Source: Candidatus Rokuibacteriota bacterium
GTDB lineage: Bacteria; Methylomirabilota; Methylomirabilia; Rokubacteriales; CSP1-6
NCBI GenBank assembly: GCA_016866775.1
Contig: VGLJ01000033.1
Coordinates: forward strand, 1 to 51,588
DNA length: 51,588 bases
Direction of reading: 5' to 3'
Part shown: positions 20,025 through 38,831 of the stretch, piece after piece
Layout of the letters: every line of letters starts with the position of its first letter
How positions within the stretch are numbered: the stretch's first letter is position 1
Position numbers and translations under genes: made by a program
The notes under the pieces: model-generated
The model's input: only the letters and a program-made list of their open reading frames with translations
The model's database searches: none
What the model was told of the DNA's origin: nothing

Positions 20025-20030
20025 AGTCTA
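20025..20030 (-). promoter_or_regulatory. Putative -10 element (TAGACT) of a leaderless transcript
   Basis: TAGACT on the minus strand, 6 nt before ATG 20018, overlapping the TAG stop of the upstream ZnuB-like gene. Confidence 0.35.
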
Positions 20031-20837: not shown

Positions 20838-20847
20838 GGCAGGATCG

Positions 20848-22516: not shown

Positions 22517-23433
22517 CCCAGCCGTGCCCACGCGCCCGCGAGCAGGAGGCTCCCGATGGCCGCGATGATCACGCCGCCCGCGACGCTCAAGCCTTTGGCC
22601 ACCCAGCCGCTCACGCGCGACTCGGCCGGGAACGCCACCATGATGGTGCGCCGGCCTAGGATCGCCAGGACGCCCACTAGCGAGGTCGTGATGCTCATGC
22701 CGATGGCCATCACGAGCGTCAGGCCCACCCCGATGAGCAGCACACCGTTCGTGAGCGCGAACAGCATGATGATCAGCGCGCTCGCGCACGGCGTGACGCC
22801 GGCCGCGATGACCATGCCGATGCCGACGCGCTCGCGCGCGTCGTGGTCGTAATGGTGCGTGCCGCGCGCGGCGGAGATCGCGATGACGAGACCGATCGCG
22901 ATGATCAGCACGTAGCTCACGGCTTCGAGCCAGACCGAGCGTCCGAGTACGTCGAAGCCGTGCTGGCCGAGGATCACACCGAGACCCCACACGAGGACGA
23001 TCGAGGTGATCGCCTGGAGGAACGAGATCGCGCTCCCGGCAACGATGCCGGCGCCGATGCGCGCCTTCCTGGCGAGAAAGAACGACGACACGACGAGCTT
23101 GCCGTGGCCCGGGCCCGCGGCGTGGAGGACGCCGTACACGAACGCCACGCCGGTCACGACGAGGAGGGCGCGCAGGGAGCCCGTCTCGCGAATCGCTTTG
23201 AGCTCGCGGGAGATCGTCCGGTTGAGGTCGCGCTGCGCGGAGGCGATCGGCGCGACGATCGGCCGCAGGAACCCGGGCACCGCGCCGCCTTCAGCGCCGC
23301 CGGGCACCGGCGTGGGCGCGGCGGGGCGCGACGGGGCCACGCCCCACGGGTTCTGCTGTGCGGTCGCCGGCGCGGCGACGAGACACAAGGCCGCGAGCAC
23401 GAGCGCGCGGATCAACGTCGGCGGTAGCTGCAT
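22513..23433 (-). CDS. NicO/RcnA-family nickel/cobalt transporter
   Basis: 306 residues from ATG 23433, preceded by GGAGA inside the end of the upstream frame. A signal-like N-terminus and a periplasmic Pro/Gly-rich stretch precede a six-to-seven helix membrane domain with the family motif VLHAAGPGHGK, a His/Asp-rich loop (GTHHYDHDARER) and the VTPCASALIIML helix. NicO proteins of this group export nickel or cobalt (RcnA) or take up nickel. Standing next to a DUF1007 domain is a known pairing for this family. Export of excess metal beside uptake genes would give two-way homeostasis. Confidence 0.85.
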   Translation of the reverse strand: MQLPPTLIRALVLAALCLVAAPATAQQNPWGVAPSRPAAPTPVPGGAEGGAVPGFLRPIVAPIASAQRDLNRTISRELKAIRETGSLRALLVVTGVAFVYGVLHAAGPGHGKLVVSSFFLARKARIGAGIVAGSAISFLQAITSIVLVWGLGVILGQHGFDVLGRSVWLEAVSYVLIIAIGLVIAISAARGTHHYDHDARERVGIGMVIAAGVTPCASALIIMLFALTNGVLLIGVGLTLVMAIGMSITTSLVGVLAILGRRTIMVAFPAESRVSGWVAKGLSVAGGVIIAAIGSLLLAGAWARLG

Positions 23434-24782: not shown

Positions 24783-25536
24783 GGGCGCAGGGCGGCTCGT
24801 GGCCCACGACGCGCACGGTGGTGCCGTAGAGCGCGGTGAGGGGGTCGTTCGTGAAGTAGTCCTGGGGGCGACCGCAGAAGATCACTCGGCGGTTCAGACA
24901 CGCGAGCTTCGTGACCTCGCGCGCGACGACGCCGATGTCGTGGCTCACGAGGACGAGCGTCACGCCGCGCTCGCGGTTCAAGTGGTGGAGTAACGCGTAG
25001 AAGCTGCTCTGCGTTTCCGGATCGATGCCCCCCGTCGGCTCGTCGAGGATCAGGAGCTCCGGATTGGACACCAGCGCCCTCGCGATCAGCACGCGCTGTT
25101 GCTGGCCCGCGGACAGTGCACCGACGCGATCGCCCGCACGTTCCGTCATTCCCACGAGGCCGAGCGCGTCCGACACGACGTCACGCCCGCTCGAGCCGCT
25201 GCCGAACCATCGCCGCGACGCCACGAGTCCCGTCGTCACGACCTCGTCAACGCGCACCGGCAGCGCGGCGTCGAAGCTCGTGCGCTGAGGAACGTAGCCG
25301 ATCCGGCGCCAGTCACGGAACGCGGTGGGGGCGACGCCGAAGACTCGGATGCTGCCTGCCGACGGCGCCAGCAGACCGAGGATGAGACGGAGCAGCGTCG
25401 TCTTGCCGGACCCGTTCGGCCCGATGATGCCGACGAAATCGCCGGGCTCGATGGTGAACGTGACGTCCTCGAGCACACGAGCGCCCCCGAACTCCATGCT
25501 CGCGTGATCGAGGACGACGACGTCGCTCACGTGCAC
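24775..25536 (-). CDS. Metal ABC transporter ATP-binding protein (ZnuC-like)
   Basis: 253 residues. Walker A G39-PNGSGKT, Q-loop Gln in YVPQR, signature LSAGQQQR (141-148), Walker B LLILDEPTGG (D165, E166), D-loop, and switch His in LVSHD are all intact. The protein powers zinc or manganese import from the cytoplasmic face. The 5' end overlaps the ZnuA-like gene at 25527 and the 3' end overlaps the permease fusion. It is the only ATPase for two binding proteins and two permeases. The C-terminus is short and His-containing (GHEPPCAHA). Confidence 0.94.
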   Translation of the reverse strand: MHVSDVVVLDHASMEFGGARVLEDVTFTIEPGDFVGIIGPNGSGKTTLLRLILGLLAPSAGSIRVFGVAPTAFRDWRRIGYVPQRTSFDAALPVRVDEVVTTGLVASRRWFGSGSSGRDVVSDALGLVGMTERAGDRVGALSAGQQQRVLIARALVSNPELLILDEPTGGIDPETQSSFYALLHHLNRERGVTLVLVSHDIGVVAREVTKLACLNRRVIFCGRPQDYFTNDPLTALYGTTVRVVGHEPPCAHA

Positions 25537-26453
25537 TCCAGCGCGATGCGGAGATTCTTCAGGTTGTCCTCCATCACGGCGACATAGTCCTTGCCCGCCT
25601 TCGCCTCGTCGGCGGTGAGGCCTTCCAGCGGGTTCAGCACGAGCGTCTTCGCGCCGACTTCGGCCGCCAGCGTTTCGGCGAGCTTCGGGCTTACGAGCGT
25701 CTCGAAGAAGATGACCTTCGCTTTCAGCTTGCGCACCAGCCGCACCACGCGCGCGAGCTCGGCCGGACTCGGCTCCGCCTCGGGCGAGATGCCCATGACG
25801 GGCACCTGAAGCAGGCCGTATCGCTTCGCGAGATACGCGAACGCGGCATGCGACACCACGATCTCGCGGCGCGCACAGTCGGCCAGGCCCGTGCCGAGCG
25901 TCTCATGCAGCGCGTTCAGACGAGCCGTGTAATTCACCGCGCGTGTCGCATAGTGTGCGGCGTTCGCCGGATCCGCCTTGGCGAGCCCTGCGCGAATGGC
26001 TTCGACCTGACCGCGGGCGAGCAGCGGATCGAGCCACACATGCGGATCGGGCTCCGCCTTGGCCTTCGCGTGGGTGTGCGTGTCGTGACCCGGCAGGTCC
26101 GCCGTGAGCAACGACAAGCCGGCCGTCGCCTCGACGACGATGGCCTTGCCCGCGGCGGTCCTGGCGAGCCGTGCGGCGCCGGCATCGAAGCCGGCGCCGT
26201 TGTAGACGAACACCGCCGCCTTCTCGACCCGCGCGACGTCGGCTGGCGACGGCTCCCAGTCGTGCGGCTCGACGCCCGTCGGGACCAGCGACACGACCTC
26301 CGCGCGATCGCCCGCGACCTGCCGAGTGAAGTCGGCGAGCGTGGAGAAGCTGGCCACGACGAGCGTGCGTGGCGGCTCGACCTTGGGCTTCTCCTGGCAG
26401 GCGGCGAGTGCCAGGACGACGACGCCGAGCAGGGCCGCCGTTGACGTCTTCAT
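25527..26453 (-). CDS. Metal ABC transporter substrate-binding lipoprotein (ZnuA-like)
   Basis: 308 residues from ATG 26453. A lipobox (VVLALAAC) makes it a lipoprotein. Candidate ligands are His in GVEPHDWEPS, His in DPHVWLDP, His in VSHAAFAYL and the Glu in FFETLVSP. A His-rich loop (GHDTHTHAKAKAEPDPH) precedes the second ligand; such loops are typical of zinc-specific ZnuA and gather or sense zinc. It delivers metal to the permease. Its end overlaps the ATPase gene by 10 bp, and the porin gene lies 7 bp upstream. Confidence 0.93.
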   Translation of the reverse strand: MKTSTAALLGVVVLALAACQEKPKVEPPRTLVVASFSTLADFTRQVAGDRAEVVSLVPTGVEPHDWEPSPADVARVEKAAVFVYNGAGFDAGAARLARTAAGKAIVVEATAGLSLLTADLPGHDTHTHAKAKAEPDPHVWLDPLLARGQVEAIRAGLAKADPANAAHYATRAVNYTARLNALHETLGTGLADCARREIVVSHAAFAYLAKRYGLLQVPVMGISPEAEPSPAELARVVRLVRKLKAKVIFFETLVSPKLAETLAAEVGAKTLVLNPLEGLTADEAKAGKDYVAVMEDNLKNLRIALECT

Positions 26454-26460
26454 GGCCGCC

Positions 26461-27789
26461 TCAGAACTGATGCGCCGGGTGGGCGCCGAGGATGAAGGTG
26501 GCCTGGAAGAGCAGCTCGTCCACGTGCCGCGCGCTCGCGCTGTTGGCCGAGAAGCCTGCGTCCTGCGTGCGTTCGGTCAGCCGGTAGGCGAGGCGGAAGC
26601 GCAGGAACTCCGACGGCCAGAAGGTGACGTACGGCTCGAAGGCCCGCTCGCGCCCACGGTCGAGTAGCTCCGTGTAGTCGTAACGCAGGCCGCCGGCCCA
26701 GCGACGGAATGGCTGCACCTCGGCGTACGCGTACCAGCCGAAGCGGGTGAACGTGTCGTCGGGGATGTCGATGTCGCGCGTGACTTCACGGCGGCGGATC
26801 GACCAGATCCCTTCGCCGCCCACGGTGAGCAATGGATGCAGCCACCCTTCGGGACGGAACTTGTAGCGCACGTCGAAGCCCGGCAGCGTGTTCCTCTGCC
26901 GTTCGGCCGTGCGCCCCGAGGCCACCGAGAGCCCGACCTGGAGCGCGTGCTCATCGGTCAGCTCGAAGAACGTCCGCAGGCGACCGGTGACGAGCGGCTC
27001 GCGGATGCGGCCGCGGCCGAACGCCGTCTCGTTGTCGCCGTTGAAGACGCCGCCAAGGACCTCGAGATAGAACGGCAGGCCGGGGACCCACGTTGCCTCG
27101 AAGCCCTTCTCGATCAGGCCTTCCTCGCCGAAGAAATAGCGATAGACGGCCGGACGATCGATCCATGGGAGGTCGTGCTCGTGGAGCTGGTTGCTCCACC
27201 CGTACCGGGTGCGCATCTGGCCCATCTTCAACTGTGTGTTGAAGGGCAGTGTCAGCAGCGTGAGGTGCGCCTCCGCGAGGCTCACTGCGGTTTCCTGGCC
27301 TCGGGCCTCCTCGCCCATCTCGATGCGGACCTCGCCGCGCGCGTACGGATCGATCTGACCGAAGAGGCTCAGCTCGACCTCGCGCGGGAAGAAGCGATTC
27401 TCGCGGCCGCGGAACGTCCCGGCACCCGCCTTGTCCACGTTGCGCTGCGTGAGGTTGCCCACGAAGTCGCCGGCGATACCGATGTCGAACAAGAGCTGGC
27501 CGGTGCCGCGCTGCTGGGACAGCGTGAACGGCTGGCGAGGCCGCAAGAGATCCATCGTGCTCGGTGGTGTTTGCGTGGCGACCGGCGCGGGGGCCGGCGG
27601 CTGCGATTCGAGTCGGCGGAGACGCTCGGCGAGCGCCTCCATCGATTTCTGATGCTCCTTCTGTAACGCCTCGAAGTTCCTGCGCATCTGTTCGAGCTCG
27701 CGCCGGAGCTCCGCGGCGTCCTGGGCGCGGGCGGGTGGCGCGAGTGCCGTCACGATGAGTGCCACGGCCAGCACGATGAGTATTCGCAT
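26461..27789 (-). CDS. Outer-membrane porin with N-terminal coiled coil
   Basis: 442 residues from ATG 27789, with a GGAGG ribosome binding site. Signal peptide ends at ARAQDA; residues about 25-65 form a coiled coil (ELRRELEQMRRNFEALQKEH), then a Pro-rich linker and a beta-barrel of alternating strands ending in the canonical terminal Phe (GAHPAHQF). The pattern is like phosphate-selective or zinc-regulated porins that pair with metal ABC importers. It stands immediately upstream of the ZnuA-like lipoprotein and so probably lets metal ions cross the outer membrane. Confidence 0.85.
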   Translation of the reverse strand: MRILIVLAVALIVTALAPPARAQDAAELRRELEQMRRNFEALQKEHQKSMEALAERLRRLESQPPAPAPVATQTPPSTMDLLRPRQPFTLSQQRGTGQLLFDIGIAGDFVGNLTQRNVDKAGAGTFRGRENRFFPREVELSLFGQIDPYARGEVRIEMGEEARGQETAVSLAEAHLTLLTLPFNTQLKMGQMRTRYGWSNQLHEHDLPWIDRPAVYRYFFGEEGLIEKGFEATWVPGLPFYLEVLGGVFNGDNETAFGRGRIREPLVTGRLRTFFELTDEHALQVGLSVASGRTAERQRNTLPGFDVRYKFRPEGWLHPLLTVGGEGIWSIRRREVTRDIDIPDDTFTRFGWYAYAEVQPFRRWAGGLRYDYTELLDRGRERAFEPYVTFWPSEFLRFRLAYRLTERTQDAGFSANSASARHVDELLFQATFILGAHPAHQF

Positions 27790-27799
27790 GTGCCCCTCC

Positions 27800-27842
27800 G
27801 TCGATTCGACTCCGGGCCCGACCCCGACTCGATCGAGTGGGG
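27800..27842. promoter_or_regulatory. Cluster of inverted repeats upstream of the porin
   Basis: Three palindromes lie between the porin start and the small gene upstream: GTCGATTCGAC (27800-27810, one central base), CGGGCCCG around 27813-27820, and the perfect ACTCGATCGAGT (27827-27838), flanked by CCCC and GGGG. They could be an operator for the cluster's Fur-family protein or an mRNA structure. They do not match an AT-rich Zur box, so the role is uncertain. Confidence 0.3.
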
Positions 27843-27868
27843 CGGCCTCGGCTACAGGGAGGACGGAG

Positions 27869-28165
27869 TCAGGCGGCGGGCGGTGCGCGCGGAGCGCCGG
27901 TGCGCGCGACGTGGAGCTCGCGGCACGCGGGCGTGAAGCACGGAAGCGCCGCGGAGGCGGCGTCGAGCGTGACGACCGGGACGACGGCGGCTTCCACGAC
28001 GTGCCCGGCGAGTCCGGCGAGGAGCGTCAGGTCGTGTTCCTGGTTGTAGAGGCCGGACTCGGCACCTGCGTGGTGGTGCGGCACGCTGCCGAGCTGGAGC
28101 AGCATCGCCATCGCGGCGAGCAGCAGCGCGGCGACGATCGGCAGACGCGACGCGGGGCGGCGCAT
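27869..28165 (-). CDS. Small exported protein with HHH and Cys motifs, unknown
   Basis: 98 residues from ATG 28165. A signal peptide or membrane anchor (IVAALLLAAMAMLLQLG) is followed by a PHHHAG motif, a hydrophobic middle, and CFTPACREL near the C-terminus. His and Cys positions suggest metal contact. It resembles small exported proteins found in front of metal operons, but I cannot name the family. It heads the zinc-type module and has the best promoter seen in the cluster (28175-28203). Confidence 0.65.
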   Translation of the reverse strand: MRRPASRLPIVAALLLAAMAMLLQLGSVPHHHAGAESGLYNQEHDLTLLAGLAGHVVEAAVVPVVTLDAASAALPCFTPACRELHVARTGAPRAPPAA

Positions 28166-28174
28166 GGTCAGCTA

Positions 28175-28203
28175 CTAATACGCGAGTCGCGAACGGTTTG
28201 CAA
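28175..28203 (-). promoter_or_regulatory. Promoter of the zinc-type module
   Basis: On the minus strand TTGCAA (28203-28198) and TATTAG (28180-28175) are spaced by 17 bp. The -10 ends 9 nt before ATG 28165, so the transcript would have almost no leader. It lies in the only 38-bp gap between the copper-type and zinc-type modules. Confidence 0.5.
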
Positions 28204-28581
28204 CTACGGCCGGGGCCGGACGTCGAACGGGAACGTGCCTTCGACCAGGTGGCCGTCCACGGAGAGCACGCGGTACTTCACCGAATACCCGCCCTTCTTC
28301 AGCGGCGGCACGCCCACCGAGAGCTTGCGCGGGTCCTCGGGGCCGACGACGATCTTGCCGTCGTCGACGCGGACCTGGTCCGCCCATACCGAGAGCGTCG
28401 AGTACGCCGGCTCCAGGCGCTCGTTGAACGTCAGCTCGACCCGTGACGGTGAGATGGCGAGCGTCGCGCGGCGAGCCGGCGACGACTTCACCAGCACCGC
28501 GTGCGCCTCTGCGACGGACACGCGCGCCGAGAGAAGCATCAGCACGGCCGCGAGCGCCACGCGGACGAGGCGCGCCGTCAT
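28204..28581 (-). CDS. copC: CopC-like periplasmic copper-binding protein
   Basis: 125 residues from ATG 28581. Signal peptide cleaves before H27 (EAHAVLVKSSP), leaving an N-terminal His, and D109-G-H111 (SVDGHLVEG) supplies the partners of the Cu(II) site, so the type I His-brace-like centre of CopC looks complete. The size matches stand-alone CopC domains. It carries Cu(II) in the periplasm, usually to CopD, and a CopD-domain protein is encoded at the head of the same run. The start overlaps the previous stop (ATGA). No Met-rich Cu(I) site is evident. Confidence 0.92.
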   Translation of the reverse strand: MTARLVRVALAAVLMLLSARVSVAEAHAVLVKSSPARRATLAISPSRVELTFNERLEPAYSTLSVWADQVRVDDGKIVVGPEDPRKLSVGVPPLKKGGYSVKYRVLSVDGHLVEGTFPFDVRPRP

Positions 28582-28823
28582 CGCGTATCCGGCTCCGACC
28601 GCTTGGCGCTCGTCTCCCCGGAGGCGCCCTGGTCCGGGTTCGGGCGGGTGAGCACCATGATGAGCACGACCACGATCAGCGCGACGAGGAGCGCGAGGCC
28701 GCCGGTGATCAGCGCGGTTGCGAGCGGGCCCATGCCCTCGACGCGGAAGGCGCCGGGATGGTCCGCGAACGCCGGCGTCGCGGCGAAGACGGCCGCGAGG
28801 GTGACGCCGAGACTTCGCGTCAC
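28578..28823 (-). CDS. Small membrane protein of the copper-type cluster
   Basis: 81 residues from GTG 28823, coupled at both ends (GTGA with the cytochrome gene, ATGA with copC). A signal peptide (LGVTLAAVFAATPAFA) leads to a short periplasmic piece DHPGAFRVEGMG, then one strong transmembrane helix and a charged cytoplasmic tail (RPNPDQGASGETSAKRSEPD). No family recognised. Bracketing by CopC and a cytochrome c suggests a membrane anchor or adaptor for them. Confidence 0.7.
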   Translation of the reverse strand: MTRSLGVTLAAVFAATPAFADHPGAFRVEGMGPLATALITGGLALLVALIVVVLIMVLTRPNPDQGASGETSAKRSEPDTR

Positions 28824-29755
28824 TTCGCGGGCGCGCTCCAGTCGAAGGCTACGGTCTGCGGACGCGCATAGCGCGTGCGATCGGGGCCCACGACCGGGAC
28901 CGTCGTCGCGCCGATCGTGAGCACGATGCGCTGCGTGCCCTGCGGGAGCGTTGCGTCCGCACCGTAGTGGAATCCGCTCGGACCGACCATCGGCGCGAGC
29001 TTCACCACGCGCGTCGGCGCGCCCTGGATCTGCACGCCGGCGGACACCGGGAGATACGGCACCGGCTCGCCGGTCTCCGCGTCGCTGACGAACGCCATCA
29101 GGTGTCCCGCCGCGCCGCCCGGCTTCGCCGCGTGGTGCCCGCCGTGTGCGCCGTGACCGGCATGCCCGCCGTGACCCTGAGCGTGGTCTTGCCCGCTCGC
29201 GGCGTGGAACGCGAGACGGACGCGATACGGCCCGATCGTGCGCTCCATCGCCGCGCCGTGATGCCCGTGATGGTGCCCCTGACCACCGCCGTCCTGACTC
29301 TTGATGAACGCGACCAGGTCGACGAGCTGCGCGACGCTGAGCGAATCCGCGTAGCTCGGCATGATCGACGTGCCGTCCGGCCCGATCCATCCCGGCCCCT
29401 CGAGGAGCACCGCGTTCGGCGCGAGGATCGACTCCGCGAAGTACTCCGCAGGATGATGCGCGCCCATCCCGGTGAGCTCGGGGCCGGTCTTGCCATCGCC
29501 ACCCGTGGGCGGGAAGTTGCCGCCCTTGATCAGGTGGCACTTGTAGCACTCGAGGTCGGCGAAGAGCTGGCGGCCCTTCGCGGGATCGCCAGCGCCGGGA
29601 AGCGTGAACTTCCATCCGCGCGGCACGCCGCCGCCGCGGTGCAGCTCGTCCATCGTCACGCGGCGCTGCGCGGCCGCGCCTGTCGCGAGCGTCGCCACGA
29701 GCGCGGTGAGCGCGAGCACGCCCAGCGCCGCGCCGATGACCGTCCGGTGCCTCAT
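28820..29755 (-). CDS. Cytochrome c fused to a Tp34/P19-like metal-binding domain with His-rich inserts
   Basis: 311 residues from ATG 29755. Signal peptide, then a class I cytochrome c domain with C70-YK-C73-H74 and an axial Met candidate in GTSIMPSYAD. After it comes HHHGHH (about 158-164), then a beta domain like Tp34/P19 periplasmic iron-transport proteins (GPYRVRLAFHAAS ... MAFVSDAETGEPVPYLPV ... GFHYGADATLP ... TVAFDWS). A second Gly/His-rich insert (HGGHAGHGAHGGHH) lies at about 188-209 within the first strands. P19 binds Cu and Fe or Mn. Joining it to a haem suggests redox change of bound metal, which is inference. Overlaps with neighbours are 4 bp each side. Confidence 0.85.
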   Translation of the reverse strand: MRHRTVIGAALGVLALTALVATLATGAAAQRRVTMDELHRGGGVPRGWKFTLPGAGDPAKGRQLFADLECYKCHLIKGGNFPPTGGDGKTGPELTGMGAHHPAEYFAESILAPNAVLLEGPGWIGPDGTSIMPSYADSLSVAQLVDLVAFIKSQDGGGQGHHHGHHGAAMERTIGPYRVRLAFHAASGQDHAQGHGGHAGHGAHGGHHAAKPGGAAGHLMAFVSDAETGEPVPYLPVSAGVQIQGAPTRVVKLAPMVGPSGFHYGADATLPQGTQRIVLTIGATTVPVVGPDRTRYARPQTVAFDWSAPAK

Positions 29756-30951
29756 CGCGTCGTCCTCCCCGAGCCTGCGCCGAGGCGCAGGATGATCGTT
29801 TTCGCCCGCGGGAACTGCTCCTCGTGCCACGTCACGACCGCCCGACCGTCAGGGGCCATCGTCACATCTGGAGCATATGCCTTGACCGCCTGGGACAGCG
29901 CCTGAATTGGGCCGAGACGGTCCGTCGTCACCTCGCGCAGGAGCACGCGACGGCGCACCGCCGTGGAATCTTCCCAGACGATCGCGGCGTGGCCCCGATC
30001 GTTCACGGCCAGCCGCGCGTGATCCGGGATCGACGACGTCGAGACGTGGACCCGGCGCGGCGCCGTGAATCGCCGGCCGTCCGTGGACGTCGCGTACAGC
30101 ACGGCCGGCTCGTTGCGCGCGCCTTCCGTGTACCAGACCGCGTGGACGCGGCCCTGACCGTCGATGGCGGCGGTGCCGCCGCGGTGCGGACACGCGGTGA
30201 TCCGCCAGCCGTCGGCGTGCACGCGCGCGGGCGCGCCGAACGTCCGCCCGCCGTCGCGCGAGGCCGCGAGCACCATGTCGCGAATGTCGCCGGGGAAGAC
30301 CTTGCGCCACAGCACCGTCACGATGTCCGGCGCGGCGGCCGCGAGCGACACGCGGCAGCACACGCAGGTCTCGTCGTCGTCCAGCGCGCGCGTGCTCTCC
30401 ACGCGCGTGCCGCGCTCGAGGATGCGCGTGAGATACGTGCGCGGCCGCTCACCGGCGCGCGTCTCGATCCACGCGACCAGCACGGTGCCGTCGGGCGCGA
30501 CGGCGAGCCCCTCGAACGAGTGCGAGGTCGGCGTGTCGTCGGTCACGCGGAGCGGCGGCTCGAACGTCTTGCCACCGTCGAGCGATCGCGACAGCTGCAA
30601 GTCGGACGCGAAGAGGCCGCCCTCCGGCTTCGCGCGGCGCGAGGCCCAGCTCACGTAGATCTCGCCGCGCGACCCGACCGCGAGGCCCGGGCCCTGGTGG
30701 AGCGAATCCGCGCTGAGGCCTTTCGGCGAGACGCGAACGCGCTCGCCCTCGGCCCGCGCCGCGTAGACCACGTTGTCGTGGCCTTCCTGAGCCACCCACG
30801 TGACGAGCGGGCCCTCGCGATCGACCACCAGCGCCGGCGCCGAGAGGCGGACGTCGTGGCCGGCCGCCGGATGGACGATCTCGTGACGCTGGGCCTGGGC
30901 GCCGGCGGGCAGCGCGACGAGCGCCGCGACGAGAACGAGCCGGCGGATCAC
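29752..30951 (-). CDS. Exported BNR/sialidase-like beta-propeller with CVCC motif
   Basis: 399 residues from GTG 30951, overlapping the TonB-receptor stop (GTGA); GTG 30963 gives four more residues. Signal peptide ends at AQAQRH. Asp-box repeats SRSLDGGKTF and SRDGGRTF and evenly spaced propeller strands mark a BNR/sialidase fold. Sialidase active-site Arg triads are not evident, so enzymatic sialidase activity is unlikely. A CVCC motif (DDDETCVCCRVSL) and ACPHRGG add Cys residues that could hold metal. It is embedded among copper and receptor genes and is probably a periplasmic or surface binding protein. Confidence 0.8.
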   Translation of the reverse strand: MIRRLVLVAALVALPAGAQAQRHEIVHPAAGHDVRLSAPALVVDREGPLVTWVAQEGHDNVVYAARAEGERVRVSPKGLSADSLHQGPGLAVGSRGEIYVSWASRRAKPEGGLFASDLQLSRSLDGGKTFEPPLRVTDDTPTSHSFEGLAVAPDGTVLVAWIETRAGERPRTYLTRILERGTRVESTRALDDDETCVCCRVSLAAAAPDIVTVLWRKVFPGDIRDMVLAASRDGGRTFGAPARVHADGWRITACPHRGGTAAIDGQGRVHAVWYTEGARNEPAVLYATSTDGRRFTAPRRVHVSTSSIPDHARLAVNDRGHAAIVWEDSTAVRRRVLLREVTTDRLGPIQALSQAVKAYAPDVTMAPDGRAVVTWHEEQFPRAKTIILRLGAGSGRTTR

Positions 30952-33023
30952 TTCCACCGCCACGCGACGCCGCCGTAGAACGCGCGGCCATCACCCGGCT
31001 CGTAGAAGCGCCCGACGGCGCTGTCGACGACCACCGACGAGGCGTAGGTCACGTCCGCGAGGTTCCGGCCCTCGAAGAACACGCTGAGGTTCCAGCGCTT
31101 CACGTCGTACCCCATGCGCACGCTCACGAGCTCATAGGGCGACGTGCGGTTGCGGTTCTCGCTGTTGACGACATAACCCTGGGGCACGAATTCCACGTTC
31201 GGTGCGACCCAGAAGCCCGAGGCGTGGTCGTAGCGCAGCTCGCCGCGCAGGAAGTGGCGTGGCGCGCCGGGCACGTCGTTGTCGCCGAAGTTCCGATCGT
31301 CGACGAACACGAATCGTGACCACGTGTACGCGGTGCGCGCGGTCAGCGAATCGCCGCCGATCAGATCACGCGCGATCACCACGTCGAAACCGGCCTCCAG
31401 GCCCATGTGCCGCGAGCGGTCGATGTTGCGGAAGCGGGGGACCGTGAACGGCGCGCCCGGAAACGGCTGGACGTTGACGTTCTGGATCTCGTCCCACAGC
31501 TCGATGTCGTAGACCGCCACGTCCCATGTCACGCGACCGAGCGCGCGCCCACGCATCCCCACCTCGAACTGCCACGCCTTCTGCGCGTCGAGCAGGCTCA
31601 GGTTCCGCGTGTTGAGCTGGCCCGGCGCGGTGAGCTCGAGGAGCAGCGGCGGCTCGTACGCATGGCTCGCGTTGCCGTAGACCTGGACCTCCTTGCTGAC
31701 GCGCCCGATCGTCCCGAACCGCGGAACGAGCGCGACGTATTCGACGTCGCCCGACTGGTTGCCGTTGGAGAGGAAGCGATCGCGCACGGCGCGATAGGCG
31801 TACTGGCCGCGCACGCCGGCAACGAGCGTGAGCGCGGACGTGACGTCGAGCTGCGCTTCCGCGTAGAGCCCGACGTTCGTCGCCTGGTTGAGCTGGTTCT
31901 TGATCTTCGCGCCGCGCCGGCCGGCGAGGTTGGCGAGCTGGGCGTCGATCTGGCTGGTGGAGAGGTACTGCAGGCCCGCGGTGAAGCGGCTCGCGAGGCC
32001 GAACAGTGGCGCCGTCTGGATGTACCGGAGCTCCGCGCCCCAGTTGTAGGTGGTCTGGTCGATGATCGCGAAGCTCAGCGGATGATCGAGGTCCTGGTAG
32101 TCGGTCTGCAGCCGCCCCTCGATCGCGCCGCTCTCGCCGAGCGGCGTCCGCACGGTGAGCGCGCCGCGCACGTAGTCGTAGCGGCGCGCGGCCCGGGTGG
32201 CGACGCTGGTCGGATCGGCGCGCCGCGGATCGCGCTCGAGCTCGTCGCGCGTGAGCGCGCCGGGCAGGTTCTCGTCGTTGCGGACATAGCCGAGGTCGAG
32301 CCGCACGCTCGTCCCGCCGCCGAGCTCGTAGCCGAACGACGTGTAGAACCGGTGCCGGATCTGGTCGCTGTAGTCGCGATACCCGTTCAGCTCGACGTCG
32401 GTGAAGCTGCCGTACAGGTCGAACGGGCCGTAGACCTGTCCGGTCGCGAGGTGGTTCTTCCAGAAGCCGAACGAGCCGGCTTCGCTGCGGAGCGCGAGCA
32501 GCCCCTCGTCGTGGCCCGTCTTGGTGACGAGGTTGACGGCGCCACCGAGGGTGAAGCCGCCGAACCTGAGCGCGTTGGCGCCCTTGTAGACCTCGATGCG
32601 CTTGGTGGCGAGCAGCTCGAGCGACTCGAAGTCGCTGAAGCCGTCGGCCTGGCCGTAGACGAAGCCGTCGAGCAGGACGTTGACCCCGCGCAGGTGGAAG
32701 TTGTTCCGGAGGCCCGAGCCGCGGATCGAGAGCTGGCTCTCGTCGGCGGCGCCCGCGCGGGGCCGGATCAGCACGCCCGGCGTGTAGTCGAGCGCGTCTT
32801 TCAGGTTCGCCGACCTCGCGCTCTCGATCTCGTGCTGCGGGATGACGTTCACGCTGCCCGGCACGCGCTCCAGCTCCTCGCGCGTCTGCTCGTCCGTCTG
32901 CCGGCGCTCGGGTACGAGCCGCGGGCTTTCCACGACGACGGGCGGAAGGGTCGGTGGGGGCTGTGCCCCGGCCGTGGCGGCGGTCATCGCCACGATGAAA
33001 GACATCAACAATATCGGTCTCAT
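30948..33023 (-). CDS. TonB-dependent outer-membrane receptor
   Basis: 691 residues from ATG 33023. Signal peptide, candidate TonB box around PPVVVESPR, plug domain (VPGSVNVIPQHEIESARSANLKDALDYTPGVLI ... IRGSGLRNNFHLRGVNVLLDG ... VEVYKGANALRFGG), and a 22-strand barrel rich in aromatic-alternating strands. The plug resembles the FecA/siderophore type. The barrel ends in WRWK rather than an aromatic terminal residue. The ligand is unknown; genes around it for CopC, CopD, cytochromes and P19 suggest copper or iron chelates. The tonB gene lies 8 bp upstream, so the energy transducer is co-expressed. Confidence 0.93.
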   Translation of the reverse strand: MRPILLMSFIVAMTAATAGAQPPPTLPPVVVESPRLVPERRQTDEQTREELERVPGSVNVIPQHEIESARSANLKDALDYTPGVLIRPRAGAADESQLSIRGSGLRNNFHLRGVNVLLDGFVYGQADGFSDFESLELLATKRIEVYKGANALRFGGFTLGGAVNLVTKTGHDEGLLALRSEAGSFGFWKNHLATGQVYGPFDLYGSFTDVELNGYRDYSDQIRHRFYTSFGYELGGGTSVRLDLGYVRNDENLPGALTRDELERDPRRADPTSVATRAARRYDYVRGALTVRTPLGESGAIEGRLQTDYQDLDHPLSFAIIDQTTYNWGAELRYIQTAPLFGLASRFTAGLQYLSTSQIDAQLANLAGRRGAKIKNQLNQATNVGLYAEAQLDVTSALTLVAGVRGQYAYRAVRDRFLSNGNQSGDVEYVALVPRFGTIGRVSKEVQVYGNASHAYEPPLLLELTAPGQLNTRNLSLLDAQKAWQFEVGMRGRALGRVTWDVAVYDIELWDEIQNVNVQPFPGAPFTVPRFRNIDRSRHMGLEAGFDVVIARDLIGGDSLTARTAYTWSRFVFVDDRNFGDNDVPGAPRHFLRGELRYDHASGFWVAPNVEFVPQGYVVNSENRNRTSPYELVSVRMGYDVKRWNLSVFFEGRNLADVTYASSVVVDSAVGRFYEPGDGRAFYGGVAWRWK

Positions 33024-33031
33024 TTGAACGC

Positions 33032-33841
33032 TCACTTGAGGCGAAACTCGACGGGGAGGCGCACCCACATCGCCACCGCCTGTTCGCCACGTCGGGCGGG
33101 GTCGAAGCGCCAGCGGCGCACCGCATCGCTCGCCGCCTCGTCGAGATCGGGATGGCCGGCCGACTGCTCGATTTCCACGTTTCCGACACGGCCGTCCTCG
33201 AGCACGTGCACGCGTAGCAGCGTGGTGCCCTGAACACCGAGCCGCTTTGCGCTGGACGGATACGACGGCCGCACCTGGTACCCACCGGTCGGGCGCGCCA
33301 CCTGCGTGACACCGCTATCGCGCGGGATCGAGGCGACCGCCGGCGGTGCCGACTTCGTCGCGTTCTCCACCATCGACACCCCGCCCTCCGTCGCCCGCCC
33401 GGCGGGCGCCGGCGCCGTGGTCGGCAAGGAGACGGCCGGCGCCGAGGCTTGCGCATTGGGAGCGGGGGCCACGGTGGGCGATGCCGCTGGCGGCGGAGCG
33501 CCGGCGGGCCGCGGCGGCGCCACGGAGGCCGGCTCGTCGGCCTTCGGTGCCGTGTCGATCTTCGGCGGCGGGGCCGCGATCGGCCTCGGCAGCGTCAGCC
33601 GCTTGGGCGGTGCGGGCGCGGCAGGAGGCGCCTCGACGACACGCGGCGCCTCGATGACGACGAGGTCGACCGCGATCGCGTCCGGCACGCGGGCGCTCGC
33701 GCGCGGCACGACGCCGGCCGCCACGGCCACGAGGCCCAGGTGAAGCACGAGCGACGCGCCGATGGGCGCGACGCGCGTGAGCGCGGCGCGATCGAATCGA
33801 ATGATGTCTCCTCCTCCGCGAGTCCGGATGACCCGGCGCAC
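33032..33841 (-). CDS. tonB: Energy transducer TonB
   Basis: Pattern: one N-terminal transmembrane helix (VAPIGASLVLHLGLVAVAAGVV), a long Pro/Ala-rich periplasmic spacer, and a C-terminal TonB domain (SYPSSAKRLGVQGTTLLRVHVLEDGRV ... ASDAVRRWRFDPARRGEQAVAMWVRLPVEF). It carries proton-motive force to the receptor next to it. The only canonical in-frame start is GTG 33841 (269 residues), which has no ribosome binding site. A strong GGAGGAGGAG at 33817-33808 is followed by ATC 33805 and ATT 33802, so a non-standard ATT start (256 residues) with a neat short N-tail is at least as likely. Confidence 0.9.
   Translation of the reverse strand: MRRVIRTRGGGDIIRFDRAALTRVAPIGASLVLHLGLVAVAAGVVPRASARVPDAIAVDLVVIEAPRVVEAPPAAPAPPKRLTLPRPIAAPPPKIDTAPKADEPASVAPPRPAGAPPPAASPTVAPAPNAQASAPAVSLPTTAPAPAGRATEGGVSMVENATKSAPPAVASIPRDSGVTQVARPTGGYQVRPSYPSSAKRLGVQGTTLLRVHVLEDGRVGNVEIEQSAGHPDLDEAASDAVRRWRFDPARRGEQAVAMWVRLPVEFRLK
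33808..33817 (-). promoter_or_regulatory. Strong Shine-Dalgarno with no ATG, GTG or TTG after it
   Basis: GGAGGAGGAG on the minus strand; the next in-frame codons are ATC (33805) and ATT (33802), 5-8 nt on. This decides between the ATT start and the GTG at 33841 for tonB. Confidence 0.5.
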
Positions 33842-33878
33842 CGGCGAGCCGGCGGCGCGGGCGTGCGAGCGAAACGAC

Positions 33879-34421
33879 TTAGGCGGAGCGGAGGGTGGGC
33901 GGCGCGCGGCCGGCGTCGGGCGCGAGGCTGCGCGCGACGAGGGCCGGCGTGGTGACGGTGGTGACGGCGCTCTGAACGAGCGCGAGCGGTGAAGCGTCGA
34001 CGATCGCGTCGGCGACGTCCGCGCTGAGCTGCGCCGACACCCCGGCGACCAGGCATTGCGTGATGTCGTCCGTCTGGCCGAGGTGGTGCGTCGAGTGGAC
34101 GCCGGCCTCGAACGCGAAGACCGCGGCGACGAGCACGAGCGCGAGGGCCACCGCGCGGCGCGGCCGCCACGCACCCGCGACCGCGACAGCGGCCAGCGAC
34201 AGCAGGACGGCCCACGGAGCCGAGGGCGCAGCAGGGCCGGCGCCCAGCGTCTCGCCGGAACGCGCAATGCGTGCTGCGCGTGCCGTTTCGGCGGACGGCA
34301 GCGCATTCGTCGAGAGCGTCTCGTGGACGGGGATGTGCGCCGCCGCCGGCGCGGCACCGAGCAGCGTGGCGCCGAGCACCATCGTGGCGAGAGCGAGGAC
34401 GACGAGCGCGGTGCGGGACAT
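33879..34421 (-). CDS. Membrane protein of unknown function in the receptor cluster
   Basis: 180 residues from ATG 34421. A signal peptide (ALVVLALATMVLGATLLGAAPAAA) leads to a short exported segment starting AHIPVHETL, followed by two hydrophobic helices (WAVLLSLAAVAVAGAW; VALALVLVAAVFAFEAG), then STHHLGQTDDITQCL with two His and one Cys, and a tail. No family recognised. Placement directly upstream of tonB suggests a role in the same uptake system. A TAGGAT hexamer 7 nt before the ATG predicts a leaderless promoter here. Confidence 0.65.
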   Translation of the reverse strand: MSRTALVVLALATMVLGATLLGAAPAAAHIPVHETLSTNALPSAETARAARIARSGETLGAGPAAPSAPWAVLLSLAAVAVAGAWRPRRAVALALVLVAAVFAFEAGVHSTHHLGQTDDITQCLVAGVSAQLSADVADAIVDASPLALVQSAVTTVTTPALVARSLAPDAGRAPPTLRSA

Positions 34422-34428
34422 CACGGGT

Positions 34429-34434
34429 ATCCTA
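34429..34434 (-). promoter_or_regulatory. Putative -10 element (TAGGAT) of a leaderless transcript
   Basis: TAGGAT on the minus strand, 7 nt before ATG 34421, in the 60-bp gap after the YVTN gene. It would start a sub-operon for tonB and the receptor. Confidence 0.45.
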
Positions 34435-34481
34435 CACCGCAAACAGGCGGCGGAGCCGGTCAGTTCCGCCCGGACCTGCGG

Positions 34482-35468
34482 CTAGCGGCCGGCCCGGCGC
34501 GTTTCCTCGGGACGCAGCGCCATGCCGTGCGGCGCCTTGCCGACCTGGATCCGGCGCACTTCCTTGTGCGTGGCGACGTCGATGACCGAGACCGCGCCGG
34601 CGTAGCGGTTGGTGACGAGCGCGTAGCGTCCGTTCGGCTCCATCGTCACCAGGTCGGGATACCCGCGGGAGTCGACGACCTTGACGATCTTGTCGTCGGC
34701 GGTGCTGACGACCACCACCTTGTTGGCCTTGCGCAGCGTCACGTAGAGGAACTTGCCGTCGAGCGTCAGCGTGGTCTCGTGCACCACGCCCGGCATCGCG
34801 ATGCTCGCGACCTGCTTGTTGGTGACGGTGTCGATCTTCAGCACGGCCTTGTTCTCGCCCGCGCCCGCGTAGAGCACCTTGCCGTCCGGGCTGAGCGCCA
34901 GCCCCATCGCGTCGCCGCCGCCGTGGATGATGCGCGCGACCGCGGTGCGCGTCTGCGTGTCGATCACGGTCACGTCACCCGCCGTCTCGCCCGAGACGTA
35001 GAACAGCCGCGCGTCACGCGAGAACACGCTGTGCGCCGGCCACGTCGAGACCTCGAGGCGCCACTCGATCTTCTCGGCCTTCAGGTCCCAGACGATGATC
35101 TCGTCGTTGCTGGCGTCGCTCGACCAGTCGAGCACGTAGAGATAGCGGCCGTCCGGGCTGAAGCTCAGGTTGTACGGGTTGCCGCCGATCTTCACGCGCT
35201 TCACCAGCTTGCGCGCCTGCGCGTCGACGACGCCGAGATCGCGGCTCTTGTCGTAGACGACCCACGCCTGCTTGCCGTCCGGGTGGAACACGATGCGATT
35301 CGGCTTGCCCTGGCCGAGCGGGATCGTGCCCGTCACCTCGAAGGTGTTGGTGTCGATGATCGAGATCGAGTTCGACTTCGTGTTCGTGACGTAGAGGCTC
35401 GCCGCGCCGGCCGGTGCCGCGAGGGCGAGCGTGACGAGGAGCGCGAGGGCGCGGGCGGCGGACGTCAC
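34482..35468 (-). CDS. Exported YVTN-type beta-propeller protein
   Basis: 328 residues from GTG 35468, preceded by AGGAGG at 9 nt. A signal peptide (ALALLVTLALAAPAGAA) is followed by SLYVTNTKSNSISIIDTNT and about seven repeats of the YVTN/YncE kind (each with a D-x-D-G or SPDGR turn). Such propellers are periplasmic scaffolds; some work with TonB receptors or haem and copper enzymes (nitrous-oxide reductase, cytochrome-like). No catalytic residues are obvious. It lies between the CusF-like gene and the receptor group. Confidence 0.88.
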   Translation of the reverse strand: MTSAARALALLVTLALAAPAGAASLYVTNTKSNSISIIDTNTFEVTGTIPLGQGKPNRIVFHPDGKQAWVVYDKSRDLGVVDAQARKLVKRVKIGGNPYNLSFSPDGRYLYVLDWSSDASNDEIIVWDLKAEKIEWRLEVSTWPAHSVFSRDARLFYVSGETAGDVTVIDTQTRTAVARIIHGGGDAMGLALSPDGKVLYAGAGENKAVLKIDTVTNKQVASIAMPGVVHETTLTLDGKFLYVTLRKANKVVVVSTADDKIVKVVDSRGYPDLVTMEPNGRYALVTNRYAGAVSVIDVATHKEVRRIQVGKAPHGMALRPEETRRAGR

Positions 35469-35482
35469 GGGAGCGGGCCTCC

Positions 35483-35839
35483 TCAGGGTTTTTCGATCGC
35501 GGTCACGACCACGAGCGGTGGCGATCCACGCACCGTAAATCGTACCGCGTCGCCCACGGAAAGCGACGGGGGAATCTTCGCTCCGGCCAGGCGGAAGCCC
35601 ATGGTCATGCCCGGCATGTAGCCCGGGATGTCCGCGTGCGTGAGCACGACGATGCCGAGCTCGGGCACGATCGCGCGGACCACGCCCTCGACGTCACGCC
35701 ACTCGCGCTCGGGGCCGCCCCAGGTGATCGTCCGGGCATCCGCCTGGGCGGCGGTGCGGCGCCACAGGTGCCAGCCACCGGCGGCTCCGACGACGACCAG
35801 GAAAAGATTGACCAGCAGGGCGGCCGTGAGCGCCCTCAA
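35483..35839 (-). CDS. CusF-like copper-binding protein with N-terminal anchor
   Basis: 118 residues from TTG 35839, which overlaps the stop of the CopD fusion (TTGA). Residues 5-24 form a membrane anchor or uncleaved signal. The domain has the CusF/Cu-binding signature: H68 (VLTHADIPGYM), then M75, M78 and M80 in GYMPGMTMGF. CusF-type proteins bind Cu(I) and Ag(I) in the periplasm and hand it to pumps or to cytochrome oxidase assembly factors. It is directly downstream of the CopD fusion, so the two should be made together. Confidence 0.85.
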   Translation of the reverse strand: MRALTAALLVNLFLVVVGAAGGWHLWRRTAAQADARTITWGGPEREWRDVEGVVRAIVPELGIVVLTHADIPGYMPGMTMGFRLAGAKIPPSLSVGDAVRFTVRGSPPLVVVTAIEKP

Positions 35840-37821
35840 TGCACGTGCTCGTCGGCCGGCGGGGCGTCGGCCTTCTCCTGGTTCAGCTCCTGGATCTCCG
35901 CGAGCAGGCGATTCATGTCGCGCGCGGTCTCGGTGCGGCTCGACCAGCGTGCGCGGAGGTAGCCGCGGCGGTCGATCAGGAACTCGGCGTGCGGCGCCGT
36001 GTCGAACCGCCGGTAGACGGAGAGGATGTCGAGGCCGCCATCGGTGACGACCGGGAAGAGCACGCGCGGGGTGTCGCCGAGCTTCTTGATCGCGTCGGGG
36101 GACGCGTCGGTCGGCACCGCGATGATCTCGACCCCCAAGGTGGTGAGCATCTGATACGCGTCGGCGAGCTGGGCGAGACGCTCGCGCGAGCGCGGCAGCG
36201 TGTAGAGGACCAGGAGGACGTGACGGCCGCCGCGATAGTCGCGCAGCGACCGTGGGGGCGCCGGGGCGACGGTGTATGAGAAATCCGGCGCCACCAGCCA
36301 TGCGCGGCCCGGATCGACGGTCGGGCCCATCCAGCGCGCGGTCTCGAGCACGCCGAGCAGGCGCACGTAGTTGATCACGTCCCAGCGCTGCTCCTCGCTG
36401 AGCGTCGCGGCGAACCCGGGCATCGCGGCGCGCGCGATCCCGTGGCTCACCCACCAGAAGAGGTCGCCGGCGGTGTGATCGCCGGTGTGTGGCGCGCGAA
36501 GATCCGCGGGCGGCCGCGGCAGGCGCGGCGCCGCGGGGCCGTCGCCGCCGCCCGAGCGTCCGTGGCAGACCGCGCAATGCTCGTCGTAGACGGCCATCCC
36601 GCTCACGATCGACGTCGCCGTGTAGGGGACGGTCGGGCGGTGATAGGTCGTGGGATAGGCGTCGACCGCGAGGGGAATCAGCGCGAGCGCGCCACCCATC
36701 GTCACGAGCACGAGCGCGCCGGCGAGCAAGGGCAGCCGCAGGCGCTGGCGCCGCAGCATCGCCACGCAGAGGAGCCCGACGAGGCCGATGACGGCCACCT
36801 GGCTCCCGACGAGGACTTGCCACCGCGCCTCGGTGCTGCGCTCCAGCGCCGCCGTCGCGAGCCGGAACGCGAACGGCCACGCGGCTTGCTCGTGACGCGC
36901 CGGTGGCGTCACGCCGAGCGCCGCGACGACGGCGAGCACCGCGGCGATCAACACCGCCTCGGTCGTCACCGACGCGGCCAGACGCCGCATCGCGGGGCGG
37001 CCGATCGTCTCGGCGTCGCCGCTCAACGCCGGCAGGAGACGCCGGCGATGACGCGCGGCCACGATCAGCGCGAGCGCGAACGCGACGAGCTTCACCAGAA
37101 GCAGGCGGCCGTACGTCGTGCCGATGAGCCCGGCGACGTCCGCGATGTGCGTCGTCGCGTTCACGACGCCCGAGAGGCCGAGCGCGATGACCGTGACCAG
37201 CGCCCACCGCGAGAATCGACGTCCGGCCACGACCGCGTACGGCCGCGCGTCCGCGCCGCTCTCCCGCGAGGCCGCGCGCAGGAGCAGCGCGAGGGCAGGG
37301 AGCGCGCCGGCCCAGACGCCCGTGGCGGCGAGATGGATGAAGTCGACAGCGATCGCACGGATCGCACCGGGCTCGACGGCCGCTGCGTGCCCCGCGGCGC
37401 TGGCGAGCGCCAGTGCGAGGGCCGCGAGCGCCGCGGTCTCGCCGTGCAGCGCGACCCAGTCGACGCGCGCGACGACGCGCAGGCCGCCGCTGACGAAGAA
37501 GCCGGCGAGCGCGAGGAGCGCCAGGCGGCTCAGCCACACGAGACCGCCCTGCGTCTCGGTGGCGACGCGCAACAGCGCGCGTGGCTCGAACGCGGCGCCG
37601 GCGCGGCCTTCGAGGAGCGCGGTCTGATGCGCGAGGACGCCGACGCCCGCGACGACGGCGACGAGCAGCAGCCAGCGCGCCGCGCGCGCGACGCGCCGCT
37701 GCCACGCGAGCGCGGTGGGCCGGTCGGACGCGCCGGCGACGAGCAGCATCACCGCGCCGCCGACGAGCGCGACGGACGCGACGAGGTGGATCCAGCGGAG
37801 GGCGAGCGCGAGCGTGCTCAC
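35836..37821 (-). CDS. Three-part fusion: CopD-like membrane domain, cytochrome c, Cys-less redoxin domain
   Basis: 661 residues from GTG 37821. Residues 1-310 form a CopD-like polytopic domain (FSRWALVTVIALGLSGVVNA; GRLLLVKLVAFALALIVAARHRRR). Two further helices follow (about 330-385). A cytochrome c domain carries C416-AV-C419-H420 and an axial Met in ARAAMPGFAATL. The last part (about 500-645) is a thioredoxin-like/peroxiredoxin-like domain (HVLLVLYTLPRSRERLAQLADAY ... VEIIAVPTDASPDAIKKLG ... AEFLIDRRGYLRARW) in which the usual active-site Cys is absent. It would sit in the inner membrane with haem and redoxin parts in the periplasm, joining copper transport to electron transfer. Confidence 0.88.
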   Translation of the reverse strand: MSTLALALRWIHLVASVALVGGAVMLLVAGASDRPTALAWQRRVARAARWLLLVAVVAGVGVLAHQTALLEGRAGAAFEPRALLRVATETQGGLVWLSRLALLALAGFFVSGGLRVVARVDWVALHGETAALAALALALASAAGHAAAVEPGAIRAIAVDFIHLAATGVWAGALPALALLLRAASRESGADARPYAVVAGRRFSRWALVTVIALGLSGVVNATTHIADVAGLIGTTYGRLLLVKLVAFALALIVAARHRRRLLPALSGDAETIGRPAMRRLAASVTTEAVLIAAVLAVVAALGVTPPARHEQAAWPFAFRLATAALERSTEARWQVLVGSQVAVIGLVGLLCVAMLRRQRLRLPLLAGALVLVTMGGALALIPLAVDAYPTTYHRPTVPYTATSIVSGMAVYDEHCAVCHGRSGGGDGPAAPRLPRPPADLRAPHTGDHTAGDLFWWVSHGIARAAMPGFAATLSEEQRWDVINYVRLLGVLETARWMGPTVDPGRAWLVAPDFSYTVAPAPPRSLRDYRGGRHVLLVLYTLPRSRERLAQLADAYQMLTTLGVEIIAVPTDASPDAIKKLGDTPRVLFPVVTDGGLDILSVYRRFDTAPHAEFLIDRRGYLRARWSSRTETARDMNRLLAEIQELNQEKADAPPADEHVH

Positions 37822-37842: not shown

Positions 37843-38094
37843 GTGTCCGTGCCGGTCACGCGCTGCTGCGTGGTGGGACTCGTCGTGGGGGTCGTGGTGC
37901 GGCAGGGCGCGGCCGGCGCGACATCCAAGCCAGATTACCAAGGGACCGCCGTGACGATGAGCATGCCGTTCATCGCGGCGCCGGCCGCGCTCTTCACAGG
38001 GCTGAAGGCGGGCGATCGTGTGGCGTTCGGGCTGAAGGTGACGCCGGACGCCCTCCTCGTCATCGCGCTGCGGCTCCTCCAGCGGAAGCCATGA
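37843..38094 (+). CDS. Small exported protein with half of a CusF-like fold
   Basis: 83 residues from GTG 37843. A hydrophobic N-terminus (VVGLVVGVVV) acts as signal peptide. The mature part (YQGTAVTMSMPFIAAPAALFTGLKAGDRVAF) aligns by eye with the second half of CusF-like domains, keeping the M-x-M-P-F motif (MSMPF, 39-43) but lacking the preceding His and first Met. It is either a degenerate copy of the CusF-like gene or a minimal two-Met copper site. Its stop overlaps the ATG of the HAD gene (ATGA), supporting real translation. It is divergent from the CopD fusion. Confidence 0.6.
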   Translation: MSVPVTRCCVVGLVVGVVVRQGAAGATSKPDYQGTAVTMSMPFIAAPAALFTGLKAGDRVAFGLKVTPDALLVIALRLLQRKP

Positions 38095-38831
38095 TCCGCG
38101 CCATTCTCTTCGACGCCGGCAACACGCTCATCCACATGGACTACGTGGCGATCGCCGCGGAGCTCGCGCGTCACGGGGTCGCCGTGACGCCCGAGCAGAT
38201 CCAGCGCGGCGACTGGACGGCGCGCGTCCGGCTCGACGGGGAGCTCTTCGCGCCGCAGGACGCCGTGTCGACCGAGAGCCGCGACACCACCGCGCGCTAC
38301 ACGCGCTACCTGCTCGAGGGCGCCGGCGTGCACGATCCCGCGCTGCACGAGCGGATGATGGCGTGGCGTCGCGGCTACAACGCGCCCGTCGGCCTGTGGA
38401 CGGTGGCAGAGCCCGAAGCCGCCGACGCGCTCGCGCTGGTGCGGCAGGCGGGTCGCGTGGCGGGCGTGATCTCGAACTCCAACGGGACGATCCGACGCAT
38501 CCTCGAGTCGCTGGACCTCGCACGCCGTCTCGACTTCATCCTCGACTCCCACGAGGAAGGCCTCGAGAAGCCGGACGCGCGCTTCTTCCAGTTGGCACTC
38601 GCGCGGGCGGGCGTGGCGCCGGACGAGGCCGCCTACATCGGCGATTTCTATTCGATCGACGTGATGGGCGCGCGGCGCGCGGGCATCCGCGGGGTGTTGA
38701 TGGACCCCGGCGGCTGCTGGGGCGTACGCGACTGTCCGTGCGCGCCGACGGTCCTCGACGCGGTGAGACTTGTCTTGAGATGGGGGACTCAGGGCGCCCC
38801 TCAATCCCCCCGCGCGGAGGGCCCGGCGTGA
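38091..38831 (+). CDS. HAD-superfamily hydrolase
   Basis: 246 residues from ATG 38091. HAD motifs: I, FDAGNTL (nucleophile D8; the usual second Asp is Gly), II, GVISNSNG, III, Lys in GLEKPD, and IV, GDFYSIDVMGARRAG. The loss of the D+2 acid/base residue is shared by part of the family and makes simple phosphatase activity uncertain. Cytoplasmic; substrate unknown. The ATG overlaps the stop of the small CusF-like gene. The stop codon lies within the loop of a strong hairpin. Confidence 0.87.
   Translation: MIRAILFDAGNTLIHMDYVAIAAELARHGVAVTPEQIQRGDWTARVRLDGELFAPQDAVSTESRDTTARYTRYLLEGAGVHDPALHERMMAWRRGYNAPVGLWTVAEPEAADALALVRQAGRVAGVISNSNGTIRRILESLDLARRLDFILDSHEEGLEKPDARFFQLALARAGVAPDEAAYIGDFYSIDVMGARRAGIRGVLMDPGGCWGVRDCPCAPTVLDAVRLVLRWGTQGAPQSPRAEGPA

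Follow-up and report, generated by a model that had tools for sequence, protein, structure and literature searches.

What would a membrane protein of the CopD family do with a haem, and with a thioredoxin fold that contains no cysteine? The question is raised by a gene of a Candidatus Rokuibacteriota bacterium (phylum Methylomirabilota; assembly GCA_016866775.1, contig VGLJ01000033.1, positions 1 to 51,588), the whole 51,588-nucleotide stretch analysed being referred to below as the window. This gene encodes a variant of the known CopD proteins: a literature search, which mainly covered papers outside subscription, found no published description of a CopD-cytochrome c-redoxin fusion.

Domain organization of the fusion

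As the original prediction claimed, a CopD-like membrane domain, a CxxCH cytochrome and a thioredoxin-like domain are carried by a single chain, and all three exceed the gathering scores in profile searches (Table 1). The Pfam domain CopD (PF05425) was detected at residues 199–302 (E 8e-22, 78 bits versus a gathering score of 32.1), Cytochrome_CBB3/Cytochrom_C at residues 407–487 (E 4e-12) and AhpC-TSA (PF00578) at residues 511–624 (E 1.5e-8, 35.1 bits versus 26). The NCBIfam CopD equivalog NF033808 spans residues 3–307 with 136.7 bits, under its cut-off of 195 bits. The AF2 model of the protein has a mean pLDDT of 90.2 and a pTM of 0.82, the pLDDT falling below 50 in the C-terminal H-x-H tail.

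Table 1. Features of the fusion gene and of neighbouring genes (positions in the window)
Feature	Position	Strand	Evidence or remark
Whole fusion gene	35836..37821	-	661 aa, GTG start, full-length homologues in two phyla
CopD membrane domain, residues 1–310	36892..37821	-	Pfam, NCBIfam, YebZ alignment
Linker with two extra predicted membrane helices (330–355, 359–384)	36628..36891	-	AF2 model
Cytochrome c domain, residues 399–497	36331..36627	-	Pfam, solved-structure comparison
Haem motif CAVCH (416–420)	36562..36576	-	Conservation among 79 homologues
Cys-less AhpC/TSA-type thioredoxin fold, residues 508–650	35872..36300	-	Pfam, sequence and fold comparison
L542-P-R-S545, CxxC position	36187..36198	-	By-eye alignment with own-genome TlpA-like WCPPCR
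His611-x-Glu613 (His611 at the cis-Pro position)	35983..35991	-	Alignment, homologue counts
C-terminal H659-V-H661 tail	35839..35847	-	Homologue counts; disordered in model
CusF-like protein, N-terminal hydrophobic stretch	35483..35839	-	PF11604, E 6.5e-14
Secreted YVTN beta-propeller protein, next along strand	34482..35468	-	Profile search
Short divergent CusF-like ORF	37843..38094	+	PF11604, 26.6 bits, just under cut-off
CopC, ~7 kb downstream of fusion	28204..28581	-	PF04234, E 2.9e-23

The homologue counts given below are based on 79 distinct sequences, some residue counts being made on 80 alignment rows. In the CopD part, His12, His145 and His163 align with His13, His135 and His154 of YebZ from Escherichia coli, and these transmembrane histidines are retained in 61, 78 and 79 of the 79 homologues, respectively. 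Directly ahead of the two extra helices, H310 (located in a loop and retained in 78/79), W315 and P316 are nearly invariant.

The protein contains three cysteines, i.e. C352, which lies within a membrane helix and is not conserved, and C416 and C419 of the haem motif, which form its only cysteine pair, in agreement with the original prediction. C416, C419 and H420 are found in all 79 homologues and Met467 in 78, this last residue being probably the sixth haem ligand. By its CxxCH motif and distal methionine, the cytochrome part would thus fit a mono-haem His/Met cytochrome c; its closest solved structure is cytochrome c552 (9vr0). Since the attachment of haem c takes place outside the cytoplasm, the cytochrome must lie on the periplasmic side, and so must the redoxin that follows it.

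A thioredoxin fold devoid of cysteine

The redoxin part, which is encoded on the minus strand like the rest of the gene, contains no cysteine at all and lacks in particular the one expected within the segment YTLPRSRERL, as the original prediction had pointed out. A by-eye alignment of a TlpA-like protein from the same genome (L135, NFWATWCPPCREEMPAL) with the fusion (LVLYTLPRSRERLAQL) indicates that CxxC is replaced by L-P-x-S; likewise, the cis-Pro segment LPSSFVVDRQG of L135 corresponds to PHAEFLIDRRG, the cis-Pro being replaced by His611. The catalytic Cys/Sec and the cis-Pro of the AhpC/TSA-ResA redoxins are therefore both missing. Among the homologues, the active-site replacement is LP.S in 53/79 and WP.S in 8/79.

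The possibility that homologues keep a cysteine lost here by error was examined. Six of the 79 have any cysteine in their redoxin part, at scattered sites, and only one (L151, which is very divergent and sits on a very long branch of the tree) has a cysteine at the first active-site position. Conservation of the lack in the 79 homologues rules out a sequencing error or a pseudogene, and the gene has no in-frame TGA, which rules out a hidden selenocysteine. As for the ancestral state of the redoxin, the very long branch of L151 prevents it from being read as cysteine. This architecture, with its lack of cysteine, recurs in two phyla at ~30–60% identity and therefore does not result from chance. 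These data support an old and conserved loss of cysteine, and a redoxin that cannot act as a dithiol oxidoreductase or as a peroxiredoxin.

The genome itself provides a baseline: among its 22 AhpC-TSA stretches, seven have the catalytic cysteine, 14 have an in-frame TGA at this position (probably encoding selenocysteine), and the fusion alone lacks both. The TGA-containing loci (L130, L132–L134, L136, L138, L140–L142, L144, L145, L147, L149 and L150) show motifs such as WUPFC, WUPYC or GUSKC, and this Rokubacteria genome is, to judge from them, probably rich in selenoproteins.

Other positions of the domain are strongly conserved. The check for conserved histidines that came with the original prediction gave H-x-E at positions 611/613 in 71/79 homologues, other acidic/His combinations (E-x-D, D-x-E, E-x-E, E-x-H) in six more, and an H-x-H located within the last eight residues, after a variable linker, in 72/79; this tail was absent from the original prediction. 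R623 (80/80 alignment rows), D617 (79/80), R548 (78/80) and H659 (76/80) are nearly invariant. H-x-E and H-x-H may be copper ligands or docking features. It had been proposed that the domain is a docking or copper-binding module rather than an oxidoreductase: the loss of the thiols, the copper setting and the conserved His/Glu and H-x-H residues support this proposal in part, whereas copper binding itself is something that we infer.

Foldseek and VIA both support a thioredoxin fold. The nearest fold is that of ResA (2h1b; VIA Z 16.1, rmsd 2.2, 134 aligned residues), peroxiredoxins having a Z of ~15 (VIA); by sequence, the domain is nearest to AhpE (E 1.5e-9), Bcp and ResA/TlpA. In the fusion, L, S and H replace the CxxC or peroxidatic cysteine and the cis-Pro of all these proteins. 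Sco1/SenC proteins share with the domain a thioredoxin fold and a copper setting, but their CxxxC copper ligands are absent from the fusion, which did not match SCO1-SenC (PF02630) in Pfam at E<=1. By motif and profile, the suggestion of a Sco-type relationship was thus not upheld. Sco is not among the structural matches listed for the domain, which does not in itself speak against a similar fold.

Genes surrounding the fusion

The fusion had been described as placed directly upstream of a gene encoding a CusF-like protein, and the two genes even overlap: they are on the same strand and the TTG start of the CusF-like gene, at 35839, overlaps the stop codon of the fusion. The CusF-like protein carries an H-x6-M-xx-M-x-M sequence that is a possible ligand set. 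The YVTN propeller gene comes next, and after it genes for a short hydrophobic protein, for TonB and for a TonB-dependent receptor; CopC is encoded farther along the same strand. In most Methylomirabilota loci, CusF is directly 3' of the fusion, and in many relatives from both phyla, including Alphaproteobacteria, CopC is directly upstream of it.

In six loci (L166, L168, L170, L174, L176 and L183), monooxygenase genes in the order C-A-B are followed by one or two small genes that occupy the AmoD/AmoE position (without Pfam match and named by position only), then by copC and the fusion; L182 has the same order, its C gene not being seen. The C-A-B/copC/fusion order is found in a Pseudomonadota order with amo-bearing genomes and in G545.

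Several other genes are found around the fusion. The minus strand of the window carries a metal island (20028–37821) that includes two ZnuA-type binding proteins with ABC parts, NicO, CopC, a small His-rich protein, a cytochrome c, a TonB-dependent receptor and TonB. A gene encoding a HAD-family hydrolase (38091–38831), divergent from the fusion, is kept at this place in many relatives and has no obvious link with copper. In both phyla, a secreted protein of ~330 aa without Pfam match (HGVVGKRFLPSTLAIDDPFVADEL..., L109:9366–10349) adjoins CopC and the fusion; its homologues are found in the alphaproteobacterial loci L040, L043, L099, L102 and L103.

Distribution and evolution

Of the 95 Methylomirabilota genomes searched, 54 carry the fusion. 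It is also present in several Pseudomonadota. The named relatives are one Candidatus Rokuibacteriota MAG and, for the others, Alphaproteobacteria, and further members come from an alphaproteobacterial order and from the Pseudomonadota order with amo-bearing genomes; in an even draw over Alphaproteobacteria and over Pseudomonadota, the fusion is rare overall. A search of plasmids gave matches at Burkholderia places only, and for the cytochrome-redoxin part only. One ORF from Burkholderia cenocepacia (L098:2788–3846) encodes a cytochrome c and a degenerate redoxin without CopD; a piece located upstream in another frame resembles the linker of the fusion, so a frameshift is possible.

In the phylogenetic tree, whose root was placed for drawing only, a Pseudomonadota clade holds all the monooxygenase-linked copies, a separate clade consists of Methylomirabilota, and the alphaproteobacterial set groups beside some Methylomirabilota. 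This last grouping suggests that the gene moved between phyla. Several lineages have two copies of the fusion per genome. In four such genomes (G463, G1013, G1050 and G1085), H-x-H ends only one of the two copies, and it is the copy located beside amo and/or copC that does without this tail; the tail is therefore not needed at that location.

Comparison with known CopD systems

The fusion shares with the CopD domain (PF05425) of CopD, YebZ and YcnJ the same transmembrane histidines and the CopC partner. YebZ stops where the additional part of the fusion starts, this part being made up of the extra helix pair, the c-type cytochrome and the redoxin, and YcnJ has another organization, CopC-CopD-YtkA (PMC12362106). 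In Corynebacterium glutamicum, CopD is also joined to a module of respiratory copper assembly, but the partner is CtaG, without haem c or redoxin (cited in PMC13344008).

A parallel in gene order is found in ammonia and methane oxidizers, whose amo/pmo operons show C-A-B, D, copC and then CopD. The presence of copCD in amo and pmo operons is reported in the available parts of PMC6189053, PMC5960693 and PMC10472526; those of the first two name the protein CopD, and none of the three mentions cytochrome or redoxin parts. By description and gene order, the fusion and the CopD of these operons (for example Q820J3 of N. europaea and Q2Y5C4 of N. multiformis) probably belong to one family.

Putative function and alternative explanations

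The domain order, the CopD histidines, the haem c site, the cysteine-less redoxin, the H-x-E and H-x-H residues and the copper-related neighbours support a reading to which we give an even chance: the fusion would be a copper transporter of the CopD type that carries its own haem redox partner, its non-catalytic redoxin acting as a docking module or metal ligand. The fusion of a haem c to CopD suggests a redox step at CopD, and the protein probably links electron transfer with the handling of copper. The following sequence of events can be proposed. CopC would deliver Cu(II) to CopD on its periplasmic side, where the fused haem would exchange an electron with copper on its entry to or exit from CopD, reduction of Cu(II) to Cu(I) being judged the more likely direction. 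Cu(I) would then be moved inward or handed to the CusF-like protein or to a client enzyme. The redoxin, having lost its thiol chemistry, would serve as a rigid docking module, and its H-x-E together with the flexible H-x-H tail may serve to hold copper or to present it, the clients being membrane copper enzymes. CopD proteins contribute to the uptake of copper in Bacillus subtilis and E. coli (PMC12362106, PMC13344008), a conserved CopD histidine being essential for copper-limited growth in YcnJ (PMC12362106, PMC13344008) and reported as important for uptake in YebZ (PMC13344008). Against this reading, CopD transport itself is known from growth and accumulation phenotypes, and the H-x-H tail is missing from the four paralogues located beside amo and/or copC.

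We put forward more tentatively, as a possibility that is less likely than not, a redox-gated copper transporter in which the haem would change the state of copper during its passage through CopD and the rebuilt thioredoxin fold would hold or dock it, the H-x-E created at the cis-Pro position and the H-x-H tail standing in for the thiols. The direction of electron flow deserves attention. Typical c-type cytochrome potentials are above that of aqueous Cu(II)/Cu(I), so a net reduction requires an acceptor that stabilizes Cu(I). The opposite direction, oxidation of Cu(I) by the haem, is possible and, thermodynamically, has to be taken seriously as an alternative. It would correspond to copper detoxification: the haem would take electrons from periplasmic Cu(I) and pass them to the oxidases, producing the less toxic Cu(II), much like a multicopper oxidase, and CopC/CopD would sequester this Cu(II). 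Electron transfer from Cu(I) to a ferric cytochrome c is downhill for free copper, a chaperone of the Cu(I) type, CusF, adjoins the fusion, and CopC/CopD were first reported as resistance genes, according to the literature summarized in PMC6769254. We nevertheless consider detoxification unlikely, as direct study of CopCD homologues points to copper uptake (PMC12362106, PMC13344008) and as the position beside amo/pmo-type operons suggests supply rather than removal.

This same position, after C-A-B and the genes at the AmoD/AmoE position, would also suit an assembly factor, i.e. a protein whose main role would be that of a scaffold for the loading of copper into one specific membrane enzyme, either a copper monooxygenase or a haem-copper oxidase, its redoxin docking the client as TlpA and Sco do for CuA; the redoxin is nearest to ResA by fold and related to TlpA by sequence, both being known maturation factors. 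However, no client fits all the carriers, since nearly all those from Methylomirabilota lack AMO/PMO and most have Sco, which makes this explanation about as doubtful as detoxification. Where Pseudomonadota have the gene next to copper monooxygenase operons, these enzymes are, we infer, the clients. A link with AMO/PMO inside Methylomirabilota was rejected: AMO occurs in 11 of the 95 genomes, and the fusion in a single one of these (G038). In the genome of the window itself, there is no match to AMO/PMO subunit A but there are several to haem-copper oxidases; these are probably the copper clients in this organism, a choice that is a guess. Sco is found in 77 of the 95 Methylomirabilota genomes, including most carriers of the fusion, which rules out the fusion as a general replacement of Sco, even if SCO1-SenC gave no match at E<=1e-10 in the genome of the window and in a few other carriers. 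Finally, the redoxin and the tail might be functionless relics, CopD and the cytochrome alone being of importance. The redoxin lacks the catalytic residues and is strongly diverged in long-branch members, and some paralogues have lost the tail; but the conservation of the non-catalytic positions R623, D617, R548 and H659, beside a pre-tail linker that is variable, makes this very improbable.

Implications

For YcnJ of B. subtilis, it is stated as unknown whether the metal undergoes reduction on its way (PMC12362106), and no reductase is known to associate with the protein (PMC13344008). With CopD naturally fused to a haem c, mutation of the haem motif offers a direct test of redox coupling at CopD. 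The cysteine-less redoxin of the fusion clearly illustrates how a redox fold can be retained without its thiols. The gene is also found beside operons for the enzymes that oxidize ammonia and methane, and the copper supply of these enzymes has a bearing on nitrification and on methane turnover. If the fusion were indeed a redox-gated transporter, this mode of copper handling would be common to lineages with copper monooxygenases and to Rokubacteria that lack such enzymes.
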